The notes under the pieces were generated by a model. That model ran no database searches and was not told the origin of the DNA. It was given only the letters and a program-made list of their open reading frames with translations. The position numbers were made by a program, and so were the translations under genes. 47,379 nucleotides of DNA from Candidatus Fonsibacter lacus (GTDB lineage Bacteria; Actinomycetota; Actinomycetes; Nanopelagicales; Nanopelagicaceae): the NCBI GenBank assembly GCA_009921625.1, contig RFXN01000002.1, positions 1-47,379 of the forward strand. The letters run 5' to 3'. Shown here one piece after another: positions 13,934-46,189 of this stretch. The first letter of the stretch is position 1. Every line of letters starts with the position of its first letter.

Positions 13934-14356
13934 ATGAGGCGGCTAATTTCTCTCTTGTCGCTTAGAACCGTCCTCGTCGAAGGTCAGTCGATGGCGCCTA
14001 CCTACAACGATGGTGACTGGCTTCTCGTCTCCATGAAGGGGTTTAAGCGAAATGGCGCTGGAATCTCTGGCGGGCGTTGGGGTTCAACCGGTGTTGGCGT
14101 AACTGTCGGCACCGTTTTGCTCGTAGAACGCGAGGAACGACCAGGCGTTATTTTCATCAAACGCTTGATTGATATCCGCATGGATTCTCCAAACCGTCAC
14201 CATTTAACTAACTGGCCAACTTTCTGGGTAGAGGGCGATAACAAATCACTCTCACAAGATTCCCGTACCTGGGGCGCGATATCTGGTGACGAAATAATCG
14301 GCAAAGTTCTCTTTCGAGTTAAAAAAAATAGGCGCGGCAACAACGAAAAAAAATAA
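13934..14356 (+). CDS. sodX: Nickel-type superoxide dismutase maturation protease (S26 signal-peptidase family)
   Basis: 140 residues. It carries the S26 Ser-Lys dyad: EGQSMAPTYNDGD with Ser19, and GVIFIKRLI with Lys76, plus the conserved WVEGDNKSLSQDSRTWGAI box. It is predicted to trim the SodN leader so that His1 is exposed for nickel binding. There is no clear membrane anchor, unlike true signal peptidases. The gene ends in a lysine-rich tail followed directly by the 8-bp repeat array, and its last 38 bp overlap the convergent kgd reading frame. Confidence 0.88.
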   Translation: MRRLISLLSLRTVLVEGQSMAPTYNDGDWLLVSMKGFKRNGAGISGGRWGSTGVGVTVGTVLLVEREERPGVIFIKRLIDIRMDSPNRHHLTNWPTFWVEGDNKSLSQDSRTWGAISGDEIIGKVLFRVKKNRRGNNEKK

Positions 14357-17300
14357 AAAACAAGAAAACAAGAAAACAAGAAAACAAGAAAACAAGAAAA
14401 CAAGAAAACAAGAAAACAAGAAAACAAGAAAACAGAGTTAGGTAAGGTACAGAAGCCATCGAATTGAGCGCAAAGAATGGCCATGGACCTTGGTTTGCTG
14501 GCTCATCCTGAACCCAAAGAATGTTTGCGTTGGGGTGCCTTGCTGCTTCAGATTTAATCGCTGCTGCAGGAAATGGAAACAACTGCTCAACTCGAACGAT
14601 TGCAGTTGTTAACTCATTAAGTTTTGCACGTTCCGCAACAAGGTCGTGATAAATCTTGCCAGAGCAGAAAATTAATCGAGTTGCGTTATTGACCATGGAA
14701 TCTGGAATTACTGTTTGGAAATGGCCCGTGGTGAAATCTTCCAATTTCGAAGCCGCAGCTTTTAAACGGAGCATCGATTTTGGTTCAAAGACGATAAGTG
14801 GGCGACGAGCAGGATTTGCCATATGCCAGCGGAGTAGATGGAAATACGAAGCGGGGCTGGATGGCTGTGCAACGGTCATATTGTTCTCGGCGCAGAGCTG
14901 GAGGAATCTTTCGATGCGAGCAGATGAGTGATCTGGTCCTTGGCCTTCATAGCCATGAGGCAAGAGCATGACAACGGAGGATCGCTCGCCCCACTTTTGC
15001 AGGGCGGAAGAGACAAACTCATCGATGATGGTCTGTGCACCGTTGGCGAAATCACCAAACTGTGCTTCCCAGAGCACAAGTGCATCATCTCGTTCCACCG
15101 AGTAACCATATTCGAAGCCAAGAGCTGCATATTCAGAGAGAAGAGAGTTAACAACGAAAAACTGATTCTCACTAGAAATCAGGCCACGAAGTGGAATCCA
15201 CTCACTGCCATTGCTTCCATCAACAATAACTGCATGGCGTTGGCTAAATGTGCCACGAGCGACATCCTGTCCTGCAAGACGAATATGTTTGCCATCGAGC
15301 AACAGCGATCCGAAAGCGAGCGCCTCACCCATAGCCCAATCGATGGTGCCCTCATTGAGCATCTCGACGCGACGTGAAAGTTGTGGCAACAACTTTGGAT
15401 GAACGGTGAAGCCTTCTGGAATCGCAACTTGAGTTGCGGCAATTTGTCGCGCAACATCCGCGCTAATTGCAGTGGCAGCCTCTTCCGGTGCTAGTGCTTT
15501 CTTAGAATCAAGAGTTGGCGCACTCGCTTCTTTGTTGTGAACCGCAGTGAAGATTGCCTCAAGTTGAGTTTGGAAATCTCGAGTAACCTCCTCAGCCTCT
15601 GCCATGGTGATATCGCCGCGACCGACGAGCGCTTCAATATAAAGAGTGCGCGTTGTTCGCTTGGCATCAATTAATTTGTACATCAAAGGTTGAGTTAAGC
15701 TCGGCTCATCGCCTTCATTGTGGCCACGTCGGCGGTAGCAAATCATGTCGATAACGACATCTTTGTTAAATGCTTGGCGGTACTCATAAGCAAGACGCGC
15801 AACGCGAACGCATGCCTCAGGATCATCGCCATTTACGTGGAAAATCGGCGCTTGTACCATGCGCGCAACATCAGTGGCATACGTTGATGAACGTCCTGCA
15901 CTGGGTGAAGTAGTAAAGCCAACTTGGTTATTGATAACAATATGGATAGTTCCACCGGTGCGATAGCCAGGAAGTTGGGAGAGGTTGAGAGTTTCAGCAA
16001 CGACACCTTGACCTGCAAATGCAGCATCGCCATGGAGCAAGATTGGCAAAACAGAGAATACATCGCGAATATTTATCTTGTCTTGCTTTGCTCGAACAAT
16101 TCCTTCGAGAACGGGATTAACTGCCTCTAAATGTGAAGGATTTGCCGCGAGATATACCTTGGTCTGTGCACCAGAATCAGCGGTGAAGATTGATTGGGTA
16201 CCAAGGTGGTACTTCACATCTCCAGATCCCTGAACTGAATTATCTTGGTAATGACCCTCGAACTCTTGGAAGATTTGGCCATGAGGTTTCCCAGCAACAT
16301 TTGCTAGAACATTGAGTCGACCACGATGTGGCATACCGATACATACTTCATCAAGCTTCTCTTCTGCGGCAGCAATAAGAATTGCATCGAGGATTGGAAT
16401 AACGGACTCACCACCTTCAAGAGAGAATCGCTTCTGCCCAACGAATTTTGTTTGGAGGAAAGTTTCGAAAGCTTCTGCGCTATTGAGTTTGCGCAAAATT
16501 CGAAGCTGTTCGTTCCGATCCATCTTCTCTACTGGAACTTCTAGGCGAACTTGCATCCATTTACGTTCTGCAGGATTACTTAAATGCATGTACTCGATAC
16601 CGATTGTTCGGCAGTATGCGTTACGAAGGATTCCAAGGATGTCCCTGAGTTTCATAAATTGCTTGCCACCAAAACCACCGGTGGCAACCTCGCGGTCAAG
16701 ATCCCAGAGCGTCAAACCATGGGTGACAGTGTCGAGGTCAGGGTGGATTCGAAGCTTAAACTCAAGTGGATCGACATCGGCCATGAGATGGCCACGGCTA
16801 CGGAAGGCATGAATTAACTCTTGGACGCGAGCAGTTTTATGGATGTCATCATCTTTGCTTCGCTCTAAATCGGTATTCCATCTAATAGGTACATAAGGAA
16901 TGCGAAGGGCGGTGAAAATCTCGTCGTAGAAGCCCTCCGCGCCAAGTAGAAGCTCGTGGATTCGGCGCAAGTAATCGCCCGACTGGGCTCCTTGAATAAT
17001 TCGGTGGTCGTAGGTGCTGGTGAGTGTGACAACTTTGCTCACTGCCATTCGGGCGAGTGTTTCCTCATTGGTGCCCTGGAATTCAGCAGGGTATTCCATC
17101 GAGCCAACGCCAAGAATTAATCCTTGGCCTTCCATGAGTCGAGGAACTGAGTGAACGGTGCCCAGAGTTCCTGGGTTAGTTAGTGAAACTGTTGTGCCAG
17201 CGAAATCTTCAACGGTGAGTCCGCCGGTGCGCGCCTTCTTAATAAGCGACTCATATGTTTCAAGGAATTGTGCGAAGTCCATTGATTCGCAACCCTTTAT

Positions 17301-18206
17301 TGATGGTACTAAGAGTTGGCGCGTGCCATCTGATTTTGCAAGGTCAATAGCAATGCCGATGTTGATGTGATCTGGTCTACCAATAGCGGGCTTACCGTCA
17401 ATAGTTGTGTAATACGCATTCATCTCTGGCATCGCGCGTAGCGCTTTAACCATTGCATAACCAATTAAATGCGTGAACGAAACTTTTCCACCACGTGCGC
17501 GTTGCATATGGTTGTTAATAACAATGCGGTTATCAATTAATAATTTCGCTGGAATGGAGCGAACGCTAGTTGCCGTAGGAACATGTAGCGAAGCTTCCAT
17601 ATTGGTGACAACACGAGCTGCAGTTCCTCGTAGCGGATCGACTTGTCCCGCAGAGGGTGAGGTAACAACTGGTGCGCTCTTTTGTAATGGTTGCGCAGGG
17701 AGCGGATCACTTGTTCGAGGCGCTTGTGAAATGACAGATTGCGGCTGTGCTCCCGGTGTTGCAGTAGTTGGCGTCGTCACTGACGGAAGATGAGTTGATG
17801 CCGACGCGCTTGGAGAGCTTGCTGCAGTTGGCGAAGAAGTGGAGATTGGGGCGGGAGCAGGTGCAGCAGGTGCAGCAGGTGTAGCAGGTGCAGCAGAAGA
17901 TGATTGAGCGGCGCCACTTGTTGAAGCGGTTGAAGTAGCTGCTGCACTTTTTGGCGCTGGTGGTCGTCCACCTGCTGCGGGAAGAGTGAGTCCTGGTGGT
18001 GTGGCAAAGTGTTGTTGGGTTTGTGAACTTGTAACGCTGGGCGCTGCTACACCGTTACTTTGACCCGCTGGCGTATTGCCACCATGTGCGAAGAGCGCTT
18101 TCCATTGAGCATCCACTGAATCGGGGTTAGCGAGATATTTTTCATACATCTCTTCAACGAGCCACTCATTGGCGCCAAAATCCCCAGCGAAGTCTGTAGT
18201 CGACAC
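14319..18206 (-). CDS. kgd: Multifunctional 2-oxoglutarate decarboxylase/dehydrogenase E1-E2 fusion with repeat-encoded hydrophobic C-terminus
   Basis: 1295 residues, GTG start with GGGAGAG upstream. Order: N-terminal SucA segment (DFGANEWLVEEMYEKYL, residues ~10-26), Ala/Pro/Ser-rich linker (~45-185), E2-type acyltransferase domain (~190-430; STYDHRIIQGAQSG near 397), then the ThDP E1 domain with GDAAFAGQGVVAETLNLSQL and VINNQVGF (~725-775), RRRGHNEGDEPS and ANQGPWPFFALN. It runs the 2-oxoglutarate to succinyl-CoA (or semialdehyde) step of the TCA cycle in the cytoplasm. Relatives continue after WPF with ~40-45 residues that include a conserved SRPASASPATGS-type segment. Here that part is absent, replaced by SMASVPYLT and three copies of FSCFLVFL from the 8-bp array, then FFIFFRCC. 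Real decay, a variable tail or an assembly join are all possible. Confidence 0.9.
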   Translation of the reverse strand: MSTTDFAGDFGANEWLVEEMYEKYLANPDSVDAQWKALFAHGGNTPAGQSNGVAAPSVTSSQTQQHFATPPGLTLPAAGGRPPAPKSAAATSTASTSGAAQSSSAAPATPAAPAAPAPAPISTSSPTAASSPSASASTHLPSVTTPTTATPGAQPQSVISQAPRTSDPLPAQPLQKSAPVVTSPSAGQVDPLRGTAARVVTNMEASLHVPTATSVRSIPAKLLIDNRIVINNHMQRARGGKVSFTHLIGYAMVKALRAMPEMNAYYTTIDGKPAIGRPDHINIGIAIDLAKSDGTRQLLVPSIKGCESMDFAQFLETYESLIKKARTGGLTVEDFAGTTVSLTNPGTLGTVHSVPRLMEGQGLILGVGSMEYPAEFQGTNEETLARMAVSKVVTLTSTYDHRIIQGAQSGDYLRRIHELLLGAEGFYDEIFTALRIPYVPIRWNTDLERSKDDDIHKTARVQELIHAFRSRGHLMADVDPLEFKLRIHPDLDTVTHGLTLWDLDREVATGGFGGKQFMKLRDILGILRNAYCRTIGIEYMHLSNPAERKWMQVRLEVPVEKMDRNEQLRILRKLNSAEAFETFLQTKFVGQKRFSLEGGESVIPILDAILIAAAEEKLDEVCIGMPHRGRLNVLANVAGKPHGQIFQEFEGHYQDNSVQGSGDVKYHLGTQSIFTADSGAQTKVYLAANPSHLEAVNPVLEGIVRAKQDKINIRDVFSVLPILLHGDAAFAGQGVVAETLNLSQLPGYRTGGTIHIVINNQVGFTTSPSAGRSSTYATDVARMVQAPIFHVNGDDPEACVRVARLAYEYRQAFNKDVVIDMICYRRRGHNEGDEPSLTQPLMYKLIDAKRTTRTLYIEALVGRGDITMAEAEEVTRDFQTQLEAIFTAVHNKEASAPTLDSKKALAPEEAATAISADVARQIAATQVAIPEGFTVHPKLLPQLSRRVEMLNEGTIDWAMGEALAFGSLLLDGKHIRLAGQDVARGTFSQRHAVIVDGSNGSEWIPLRGLISSENQFFVVNSLLSEYAALGFEYGYSVERDDALVLWEAQFGDFANGAQTIIDEFVSSALQKWGERSSVVMLLPHGYEGQGPDHSSARIERFLQLCAENNMTVAQPSSPASYFHLLRWHMANPARRPLIVFEPKSMLRLKAAASKLEDFTTGHFQTVIPDSMVNNATRLIFCSGKIYHDLVAERAKLNELTTAIVRVEQLFPFPAAAIKSEAARHPNANILWVQDEPANQGPWPFFALNSMASVPYLTLFSCFLVFLFSCFLVFLFSCFLVFLFFIFFRCCRAYFF
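14361..14432. repeat. 8-bp tandem repeat (CAAGAAAA), 9 perfect copies
   Basis: 72 bp of uninterrupted CAAGAAAA between the convergent sodX-like and kgd genes. It is not a multiple of three per unit, but three units (24 bp) encode one 8-residue period. It contributes 24 residues to the kgd frame on the minus strand. Gain or loss of single units would change that frame. Confidence 0.97.
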
Positions 18207-28278: not shown

Positions 28279-29394
28279 ATGAAAAAGTCGCAAATCATGC
28301 AAGTGGTAGCGATCGTCGTAGGTTTGATGATCGCCTCCTTTGGCATGGGCTTTTTCTTGAACGGTGACCAGTCATCGGTGGACCAGGCGCTAAAACAAAT
28401 TTCTACCGAGCAAAAAATCTCTGCTTCTGAATTAGAACGAGCCGCAATTGAAGGAATGCTCCGTGCATCAGGTGATCGTTGGTCGAATTATCGAGATGCA
28501 TCGCAGGCTTCCGCGGAAAGTGATGAATTAGATGGCCGATATAGTGGCATTGGAATTTGGCTACGGCCAGGTAATGGCGGCGGGACAGAGATTGCTGGAA
28601 TCAAGTCAGATTCGATCGCTGAACGAGCAGGGTTAAAAATTGGCGATGTTATTGCGCTCATCGATGGCGCCGATTTTTCCTCAGCAAATCTTCCAGCAAC
28701 GATAGAGGCGCTCCGGGGAGAGCCAGGGTCGATTCTAAAATTGAAAGTTCTTCGCAACGGATTAGAAAATGATTTTGAGCTGGTCCGAGAGAGTTTTAAC
28801 ACATCCGATGTGACTATTAAGCAGCTTGCATCTAATGTAGCACTAATTCGGATTGAAGCATTTAGTGAGAAAGTTGTTTCAGAGGTTGTCAATGGTCTCG
28901 CCGAGGTGAAATTTGAAAAAGGAATTGTTATTGATTTACGAAATAATCCCGGTGGTGTACTAAATGTAGCAACAGATTTTACCCAACTCTTTATTCGATC
29001 GGGATTAGTAGTCTCTTATGATCGAGGAAGTGGTAAGCGGATTGCCATCGAAGCTGAAAATAAGAACCCAATATCGGTGCCATTAACAATTGTGGTTAAC
29101 GAAAACACTGCAAGTTCAGCCGAAGTTGTTGCGGGAGCGCTACAGGACCGTAATCGCGCGGTGGTTATTGGAACGCAGACTTTTGGTAAGGGTTCTGTGC
29201 AAGAGAGCGTCACTTTGAATAATGGTGCGAGCCTCGAAACTACAGTTGGAAAATTCCGTACCCCTTCTGGCCGTTTCATCGATAAAAAAGGGATTACCCC
29301 CGATGTAATCGCATCAGAGCGGGAATCGATGAGGCGAAGTATTGAAATTCTTCAGGCTCTTAACGCCATCAACGACCCAGTAAAGGGGAGTTGA
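28279..29394 (+). CDS. C-terminal processing protease, S41 family (CtpA-like)
   Basis: 371 residues. N-terminal signal anchor (VVAIVVGLMIASFGMGFFL). PDZ domain around residues 90-165 (IAERAGLKIGDVIALIDGADF). The S41 catalytic core carries Ser in NENTASSAEVVAGALQD and Lys in GTQTFGKGSVQ. VIDLRNNPGG precedes them. Extracytoplasmic processing or degradation of proteins is expected. It directly precedes smpB in Actinobacteria of this type and shares the transcript. Confidence 0.9.
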   Translation: MKKSQIMQVVAIVVGLMIASFGMGFFLNGDQSSVDQALKQISTEQKISASELERAAIEGMLRASGDRWSNYRDASQASAESDELDGRYSGIGIWLRPGNGGGTEIAGIKSDSIAERAGLKIGDVIALIDGADFSSANLPATIEALRGEPGSILKLKVLRNGLENDFELVRESFNTSDVTIKQLASNVALIRIEAFSEKVVSEVVNGLAEVKFEKGIVIDLRNNPGGVLNVATDFTQLFIRSGLVVSYDRGSGKRIAIEAENKNPISVPLTIVVNENTASSAEVVAGALQDRNRAVVIGTQTFGKGSVQESVTLNNGASLETTVGKFRTPSGRFIDKKGITPDVIASERESMRRSIEILQALNAINDPVKGS

Positions 29395-29396
29395 TT

Positions 29397-29867
29397 ATGA
29401 AGGAGAGCGGTAAAAAGATAATCGCGCAAAATAAGAAAGCGCGCCATGATTACTCTATTGAAGATGTCTTTGAATGTGGCATCGCTCTCTCGGGCACGGA
29501 AGTGAAATCACTTCGCGCTGGTCGAGCCTCTCTCGTTGATGGTTTTGCCATGTTTGACGAAGGGGAGCTCTGGCTTCAGGGCGTTCATATTCCGGAGTAC
29601 TTCGAAGGCACATGGAATAACCATCCACCGCGCCGCAATCGAAAACTCCTTATGCATAAGCGTGAACTTACGCGTCTGCTTGGACGCGTTAAAGAAGGTG
29701 GTGTGACGCTGATACCGCTCTCTCTTTACTTCACCAATGGAAAAGTGAAAGTCGAGTTGGCACTTGCTCGTGGAAAGAAGGCGCATGACAAACGTGAGTC
29801 GCTCAAGGAACGCGAGGCGGGCAGAGATATCGCCCGCGCGCTCTCTGCTAAAAATCGCGGAGAGTAA
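29397..29867 (+). CDS. smpB: SsrA-binding protein SmpB
   Basis: 156 residues from the ATG at 29397, chosen over the TTG 29391 of the track because AGGGGAG sits 7 nt upstream. Motifs: IIAQNKKARHDYSIEDVFECGIALSGTEVKSLRAG, NHPPRRNRKLLMHKREL and the basic C-terminal tail. It binds tmRNA and delivers it to stalled ribosomes. The tmRNA gene is 300 bp downstream. The last codons form the first copy of a tandem repeat that continues past the stop. Confidence 0.95.
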   Translation: MKESGKKIIAQNKKARHDYSIEDVFECGIALSGTEVKSLRAGRASLVDGFAMFDEGELWLQGVHIPEYFEGTWNNHPPRRNRKLLMHKRELTRLLGRVKEGGVTLIPLSLYFTNGKVKVELALARGKKAHDKRESLKEREAGRDIARALSAKNRGE

Positions 29868-29987
29868 CGACTGATTTGCTAAGGGGGGGGCTACCTGCGC
29901 TCTCTGATAAAAATCCTGGAGAGTAACAACTGATTTGCTAAGGGGGGCTACCTGCGCTCTCTGATAAAAATCGTGGAGAGTATTTTT
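29838..29987 (+). repeat. Tandem repeat of the smpB 3' end, about 58 bp, 2.5 copies
   Basis: Copy 1 (29838-29896) covers the last smpB codons, the stop and downstream sequence. Copy 2 (29897-29953) and the partial copy 3 (29954 on) repeat GCGCTCTCTGATAAAAATC and the flanking TGATTTGCTAAGGGGGG. Copies differ by single substitutions and the G-run length (8 versus 6). Confidence 0.9.
29956..29987 (+). terminator. Candidate intrinsic terminator formed by the third repeat copy
   Basis: CTCTCT / GGAGAG stem (one G-T pair) with an AT-rich loop, followed by TATTTTT. Only this copy has the T-run. The first copy, inside the smpB end, makes a stronger 8-bp stem (CTCTCTGC / GCGGAGAG) but lacks the T-run. 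Confidence 0.55.
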
Positions 29988-30167: not shown

Positions 30168-30535
30168 GGGGGTGAACGGTCTCGACTTCGTTGGTTGAGC
30201 TAGGGGAAGCGGGCAGAGGAAGCCGGAATGATCTCTTTAACCACATCCGCGCAAACAATCAAGCGCCAGTAAAACTGCCGCTGATTACGCCCTCGCTGCA
30301 TAAGCGAGCCTCGTAATCCGTTAGCCCAGGTTTGCTCTCGCCCTGGAATCTAGCGTCGCTAGAGAGCTGACTTTCTCTGAGTGTTATGGATCAGAGACGG
30401 GAACACTCTCTATAACTGAGTCTGTCGATTACTTGTGTGTATGAGAATCGGGACTGAGAAAGCGTTAAACACACTACGCCCGTAGAAGCCCTACTTCAGT
30501 TGCGAAGGACCCGGGTTCGATTCCCGGCACCTCCA
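30168..30535 (+). ncRNA. ssrA: Transfer-messenger RNA (tmRNA)
   Basis: 368 nt, one-piece tmRNA. The 5' acceptor GGGGGTG pairs with 3' CACCTCC plus A, with the conserved G3-U70 alanine identity pair. The D-like region is AACGGTCTCGACTTCG. T-arm is CCGGG-TTCGATT-CCCGG. The resume codon is GCC at 30265, preceded by CAAACAATCAAGC, closely resembling the mycobacterial context. The encoded tag is ASKTAADYALAA followed by TAA (30301), same length and ending as the mycobacterial and corynebacterial tags. CCA is not encoded. It rescues stalled ribosomes with SmpB. Confidence 0.95.
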
Positions 30536-30584
30536 CGTCCCCTATGAAATCCGTGCCCACCAATGAGAGCTACTTGTGTGCGAG

Positions 30585-44874: not shown

Positions 44875-46189
44875 ATGACGTCTTTATCTGTTGAAGAACT
44901 TCGAGCTGCCGTGGCCTCTGGCACCATTGATACCGTAGTTGTGGCAATGACCGATATGCAGGGAAGACTTGTCGGAAAACGTATTCATGGCTCTTACTTC
45001 ATTGACGAAGTGCTTCATCATGGGACTGAAGGCTGCAATTATCTTTTAGCTGTTGATGTTGATATGAATACTGTCTCTGGTTATGAAATGTCCTCATGGG
45101 AAGCTGGATACGCTGATTTTGCGCTACACCCTGATCTTTCTACATTACGTCGCATACCTTGGCAAGAGGGAGCTGCATTAGTGCTTTGCGATGTGCTCTG
45201 GCTGGACGGGCAAGATGTCGTGGCATCTCCGCGCCAAATTTTGCGTAAACAGATCACCGCTCTTCATCAGAGCGGCATGAAGGCCTTGGTCGGGACTGAA
45301 CTCGAGTTTATTCTTTTTAATAATTCATATGAAGATGCTTGGCAGAGAGGGTATCGAGAATTAACGCCATCCAATTTATATAACGTGGATTATTCAATCT
45401 TAGGCGGATCTCGGGTTGAGCCAATTCTTCGAGCCATCAGACTCGGTATGGCAGGCGCTGGAATGACTGTGGAATCCGCAAAGGGTGAATGTAATTTTGG
45501 TCAGCATGAAATTGCTTTCAAGTACGCCGAAGCCTTAACTTCTTGTGATAACCACTCGATTTACAAAAATGGTGCGAAAGAAATTGCATCTCAGTTCGGA
45601 CAACTCTCATATGCATGTTTCTTTTCGTGGACTTGCTGACCAGCTTGTAATGTGCGATGAGAAGGATGAGGTCCATGGCTTAAGTGATTTGGGGCGATCT
45701 TTTATAGCGGGCCAACTAGCTCATGCCAGAGAGTTAACTCTTATGTTTGCGCCGAATATCAACTCGTATAAACGATTTATTGAGGGATCTTTTGCACCTA
45801 CTGCAATTAGGTGGGGGCGGGATAACCGAACCTGCGCTTTTCGTTTAGTAGGACGGGGGCCAAGTCTTCGCCTCGAGAATCGCATACCTGGCGGTGACGT
45901 AAATCCTTACCTGGCTATCGCAGGAATTATCGCTGCTGGGCTCGACGGAATAAATAAAAAATTAACTCTAGAAAGCGCATTTGAAGGCAATGCATATGTT
46001 TCTGATTCTCTTCGGGTGCCAAGCACCATGCAAGAATCCCTCGCTTTATGGAGTGAGTCAGAATGGATTCGAGAGGTTTTCGGGGCGAAAGTGCAAGATC
46101 ATTATTCGAACATGGCTAAAGTTGAGCTCGCCGCGTTTAATCGCTCCGTCACAGACTGGGAGCGATACCGAAACTTTGAAAGGTTCTAA
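44875..46189 (+). pseudogene. Glutamine-synthetase-family gene (gamma-glutamyl-amine ligase type), frameshifted with a missing segment
   Basis: Two overlapping frames form one gene. Frame 1 (44875-45639) gives the N-terminal half (MTDMQGRLVGKRI, GTELEFILF, CNFGQHEI, CDNHSIYKNGAKEIASQFG). Frame 2 resumes with NSHMHVSFRGL and runs to 46189 (APNINSYKRFIEGSFAPTAI, RWGRDNRTCAFR, ENRIPGGDVNPYLAIAG). Relatives have about 14 residues (FTFMAKxDEREG-like) between SQFG and NSxHxH; here they are absent and the frame shifts by one. Intact it would resemble GlnA3/PuuA-type ligases that attach glutamate to polyamines. As written only a truncated protein is made. The ALDH gene overlaps the stop by one base (TAATG). 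Confidence 0.85.

Follow-up and report, generated by a model that had tools for sequence, protein, structure and literature searches.

The closest described counterparts of the enzyme considered here are the actinobacterial OdhA/KGD two-in-one 2-oxoglutarate dehydrogenases (PDB 8p5t and 2xt6; PMC10415282). The kgd product encoded in the window (the whole stretch of 47,379 nucleotides of Candidatus Fonsibacter lacus DNA that was analysed) shares their domain order, in which a single chain carries an E2o acyltransferase domain and, after it, E1o domains, and their sequence as far as FALNSM, but it lacks the last 42 residues and, in the assembly, the complete OxoGdeHyase_C domain with its S-P-A-T-G-type segment and final helix. 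In place of these residues the frame runs through an 8-bp tandem array. The contingency loci of host-adapted bacteria likewise consist of a short repeat, with a unit that is not a multiple of three, lying inside an open frame. Unlike those loci, the kgd frame is open only because its stop codon is missing, and no frame restores a functional product. Intergenic arrays in Bacillus (PMC8161180) are similar in that related species carry unrelated array sequences, but their unit size is constant at 20-21 or 52 nt, whereas unit size varies among the arrays described below. Assembly errors near tandem repeats (PMC6868369) offer a further likeness, a local fault beside a short array in a draft, although the faults reported here are clean and lie mostly in non-repetitive coding DNA. 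We found no paper in the open literature that links Nanopelagicales with tandem repeats. Taken together, the sequence comparisons presented here make it very probable that the kgd tail is an artefact of a deletion in the assembly or consensus and that the array is an ordinary intergenic repeat.

The kgd frame and its missing 3' end

The kgd open reading frame encodes 1295 amino acids, and its stop codon falls inside the convergent sodX gene (Table 1). The protein scored 1926 bits against NCBIfam PRK12270 (cut-off, 878), matching profile positions 11-1202 of 1241, and contains the Pfam domains 2-oxoacid_dh, E1_dh, Transket_pyr and OxoGdeHyase_C in that order, the match to the last of these stopping at position 103 of 151. 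Kgd is normal up to ...EPANQGPWPFFALNSM, the homologous part closing with ...FALNSM, and continues as ASVPYLTL(FSCFLVFL)x3FFIFFRCCRAYFF*; the translation as a whole ends in ...ANQGPWPFFALNSMASVPYLTL(FSCFLVFL)x3FFIFFRCCRAYFF*. Homology to the closed sister genome in tblastn stops at 14457, and what has been lost from there comprises the 42 last codons and the stop codon, at least about 129 bp. The incompleteness of the OxoGdeHyase_C domain is probably attributable to an assembly deletion. A search of the whole assembly with the 42 C-terminal residues gave no match anywhere, while the same query matched all four sister species and one related genus, and the idea that the C-terminus is encoded elsewhere in the assembly was rejected. 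The 22 bp that separate the kgd junction from the array are probably a remnant of the DNA between kgd and sodX; as a templated copy of nearby sequence they scored no better than shuffled controls, and that origin was also rejected. Strong purifying selection acts on the remainder of kgd (dN/dS about 0.016), which shows no decay; 16 of its residues are unique to the window genome, versus 6-10 unique residues in the sisters. No KorA-type bypass scoring above the family cut-off was found in the window genome (hereafter G000).

The normal form of the C-terminus is well defined. The four sisters, which are the other species of the genus (G001-G004, of which G003 is closed, at 1.55 Mb), all end Kgd in ...SRLASAAPATGNHHLHEEEQKALIFEAFQR*. 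Within the family, the C-terminal region was matched, at least partly, in 264 of 296 genomes. Only three of these matches were low scoring: the window genome itself and two genes cut off where a contig ends. Of the family genomes with a low score or no match, thirteen were checked, and the five with a match were all cut at contig ends; no truncated kgd was seen in any other family genome with a complete locus, the partial cases that could be located being contig ends. A wider genome collection gave a normal C-terminus in 74 of 74 complete loci. In an alignment of 31 sequences, the missing segment contains one near-invariant residue each of R, G, H and F and is present in all 30 relatives, proteobacteria included, the window sequence alone being without it. 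The C-terminal region of an intact sister matches solved structures (PDB 8p5t and 2xt6) to their ends. AlphaFold modeled the segment in an intact relative with a confident strand and helix, and the tail that replaces it in the window protein with a pLDDT of about 48-62.

Much of what the initial annotation had described at this locus was borne out: nine perfect 8-bp units, read by kgd as three copies of FSCFLVFL before a stop inside sodX; an array open in every frame; and the loss of the usual C-terminus, put there at some 40 residues. It had also proposed comparing sister C-termini, and all four proved normal. Its statement that gain or loss of a single unit changes both the frame and the tail holds for the residues downstream of the array, for which there are three alternatives, but not for the array itself: because 8 and 3 share no factor, all three frames yield the same octapeptide.

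In a separate part of the gene, in-frame tandem arrays occur in the linker near the Kgd N-terminus, and their unit and copy number differ among the five species of the genus.

Table 1. Coordinates of features in the window and, where a contig is named, elsewhere
Feature	Position	Strand	Evidence or remark
sodX-like signal peptidase S26 (Ni-SOD maturation protease type), convergent with kgd	13934-14356	+	Pfam Peptidase_S26; NCBIfam; sodN synteny in sisters
kgd open reading frame as assembled	14319-18206	-	
Final part of the probably fortuitous kgd read-through frame, antisense to the sodX end	14319-14356	-	
8-bp tandem array, TTTTCTTG-type on the kgd strand	14357-14434	.	TRF; position compared with sister gaps
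Stretch between kgd junction and array	14435-14456	-	Homologous to no sister; occurs once in the assembly
kgd/odhA-type 2-oxoglutarate dehydrogenase (E2o-E1o), part homologous to relatives	14457-18206	-	NCBIfam PRK12270; Pfam; tblastn
In-frame arrays in Kgd N-terminal linker	17856-17896		Also 5' kgd of L169, L170, L145 and L171
Array hotspot	11326-39290		Colinear with G003 C1:1551121 through contig start to 36290
ORF conserved in G003	29391-29864		
59-bp tandem repeat	29838-29982		2.5 copies
tmRNA gene	30168-30536		
Glutamine-synthetase-like gene, 44 bp missing, frame break	45603-45604 (gene 44875-46186)	+	Compared with G003
G001 array in kgd/sodX gap	L169: 10359-10450		16-bp unit
Deletion, dnaA	L267: near 2690		
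Deletion, pknB-type	L267: near 14054		
Deletion, eno	L137: near 17850		
Deletion, GABA transaminase	L257: near 725		
Deletion, rseP-like	L257: near 2425		
Deletion, ispG	L257: near 4125		
Deletion, pnp	L257: near 15094		
Deletion, pcrA-like	L128: near 848		
Further deletions	L259, L261		

Tandem arrays in the kgd/sodX gap

The array consists of 9.75 perfect copies of AAAACAAG (TRF score, 156) and contains the nine perfect CAAGAAAA units of the initial annotation. It occurs once in the assembly, and no array scoring 60 or more arose by chance in 1.5 Mb of first-order Markov random sequence. The TAA stop codon of sodX, whose product lies above the cut-off of NCBIfam sigpep_I_bact and below that of sod_Ni_protease, directly adjoins it. 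Scans for terminators and promoters gave no more hits than shuffled sequences and none inside the array, and a role for the array as a terminator or promoter was rejected.

Two sisters, G002 and G004, have no array, and their kgd and sodX genes touch or overlap at the ends. In the other two an array lies between a normal kgd stop codon and sodX: 5.8 copies of a 16-bp unit in G001 and 4.9 copies of a 35-bp unit in G003. Unit size thus takes the values 8, 16 and 35 bp in the three species with an array, and the units are unrelated. As judged from these sequences, the kgd/sodX gap is a site where unrelated tandem arrays arise in the genus, normally noncoding. The array of the window is itself probably genuine, an ordinary species-specific intergenic repeat; it would be intergenic in nature and is read through because the kgd stop is missing. 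According to the initial annotation, sister genomes with the array outside kgd after a normal C-terminus would speak against its reading. G001 and G003 come close to this, with arrays in that position but of different units.

The 16-bp unit of the G001 array resembles the last bases of kgd itself, including the stop codon, and the array looks as if it had come from tandem duplication of the kgd end.

Deletions across the draft genome and the probable origin of the tail

G000 is an 85%-complete draft of 1.35 Mb in 266 contigs. About 359 kb of it was set against the ORFs of the closed sister G003: clean net deletions of 17-199 bp that break the frame were found in 11 of 202 conserved genes, and no gene had a frame-breaking insertion. 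The same test detected no frame-breaking deletion in 149 control genes (Fisher P = 0.002), which came from parts of two closed genomes belonging to other genera and from three short sister loci, none of them a comparable draft. One of the 11 deletions lies in the window, in a glutamine-synthetase-like gene that is intact (452 aa) in G003; the other ten, spanning the same range of sizes, all lie in conserved genes outside it. Among the genes broken are those for DnaA, enolase, IspG, Pnp, a pcrA-like helicase, a pknB-type kinase and an rseP-like protease. The enolase break alone proves less, because there is a second, distant enolase paralogue. The broken dnaA gene is the sole copy in the assembly, and the deletion takes out a conserved segment near the C-terminus; each of the four sisters has an intact gene of 479 aa. 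Judged by what is known of essential genes in bacteria, a cell could not live with the whole set broken. The deletions are therefore to be read as faults of the assembly and not of the organism.

In size class and kind the loss in kgd matches this series, of which it is most simply a further case; we infer that it belongs there and that kgd ends normally in the real cell. Because the window and G003 are colinear, the loss is local, and a long-range chimera was rejected. The junctions of the deletions are clean and lie mostly in non-repetitive coding DNA, and the array is therefore probably a neighbor of the kgd deletion, not its cause. The initial annotation had offered a repeat-mediated deletion or an assembly join as its fallback; the assembly form of this suggestion is supported by the series of clean deletions in conserved and essential genes, and the repeat was probably a bystander. 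On the reading that we favor, the final 42 codons of kgd and its stop codon would have been lost in the assembly or consensus through a deletion of at least about 129 bp, and the frame, left without a stop, would run by default through the 8-bp intergenic array and terminate in DNA antisense to sodX. In the living organism the array would lie, noncoding, between the normal kgd stop and the sodX stop, and the tail would have no function. The true end of Kgd is predicted to be ...ASAAPATGNHHLHEEEQKALIFEAFQR, followed by the stop codon and then the array. Some considerations weigh against an assembly origin. The kgd junction lies outside the repeat, and a plain de Bruijn graph join would need a shared k-mer. 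The 22 bp next to the junction match no sister, and the control genes came from sequence other than a comparable draft. Nor do all actinobacteria strictly require kgd: odhA deletion strains of Corynebacterium glutamicum are viable, with severe growth defects (PMC10581250).

That viability also bears on the possibility that a recent deletion in the strain or population really removed the 3' end of kgd next to a repeat hotspot, leaving a truncated and probably inactive enzyme. The status of the kgd/sodX gap as a tandem-repeat hotspot in this genus, and the likeness of the G001 unit to the last bases of kgd, would suit such an event. However, the same assembly has deletions of this kind in dnaA, ispG and pnp, where they are implausible as real events; what remains of kgd is free of decay, and the loss was seen in no other genome of the family whose locus is complete. 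We regard a real deletion as unlikely. The initial annotation proposed a variable tail, as in a contingency locus. In such a locus, slippage of the 8-bp unit would switch Kgd among three hydrophobic tails and so alter its localization or activity, relocating the enzyme or switching it off in part of the population. A tail of this sort, if real, would be a striking example of a central TCA-cycle enzyme altered by a hypermutable repeat. The array is perfect and its unit length is not a multiple of three, each of the three tails is strongly hydrophobic (maximum 19-residue Kyte-Doolittle mean, 2.6-3.0), and purifying selection acts on most of the frame. Nevertheless, the conserved C-terminus is absent at every unit count, and none of the three frames gives a complete functional product, leaving no "on" state; nor is the repeat conserved in place within the gene, the sisters having either no array or an unrelated one outside kgd, and array and tail are absent from all relatives. 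The low-confidence model of the tail, where a relative has a confident strand and helix, and the many unrelated deletion faults of the same assembly argue in the same direction, and the proposal of a contingency locus, which these comparisons do not support, is very improbable. The chance that Kgd genuinely ends in this way and works, the tail being tolerated in place of a dispensable C-terminus, is close to negligible. In C. glutamicum a C-terminal fusion of mVenus to OdhA allows growth comparable to that of the wild type (PMC10581250), but the fusion adds to an intact C-terminus, whereas the segment lost here carries the near-invariant R, G, H and F and is kept by every aligned relative.

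The short losses inside many conserved genes have a practical consequence for users of the G000 draft: truncated, fused or frame-shifted genes taken from it should be distrusted until the reads have been checked. In a separate observation, the lengths of 15 of 39 sampled G000 contigs are exact multiples of 30 (about 1.3 expected; P about 1e-12), which suggests an unusual trimming or chunking step in the making of the assembly.

Clustering of arrays along the chromosome

Tandem arrays are unevenly distributed in this genome, at 14.8 per 100 kb in the window versus 3.2 in the rest of G000 examined. In G003, 7 of 10 intergenic arrays fall within 37 kb that are colinear, or nearly so, with the window. 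The two species thus share a colinear hotspot of about 40 kb (Table 1), in which their arrays have unrelated units. A replication origin or terminus was rejected as the cause of the clustering, the GC-skew extremes of G003 lying at 283 kb and 1061 kb and its kgd at about 15 kb. The clustering has no bearing on the kgd tail. The window further contains a 59-bp tandem repeat, which begins where an ORF conserved in G003 ends and is situated about 190 bp upstream of the tmRNA gene.
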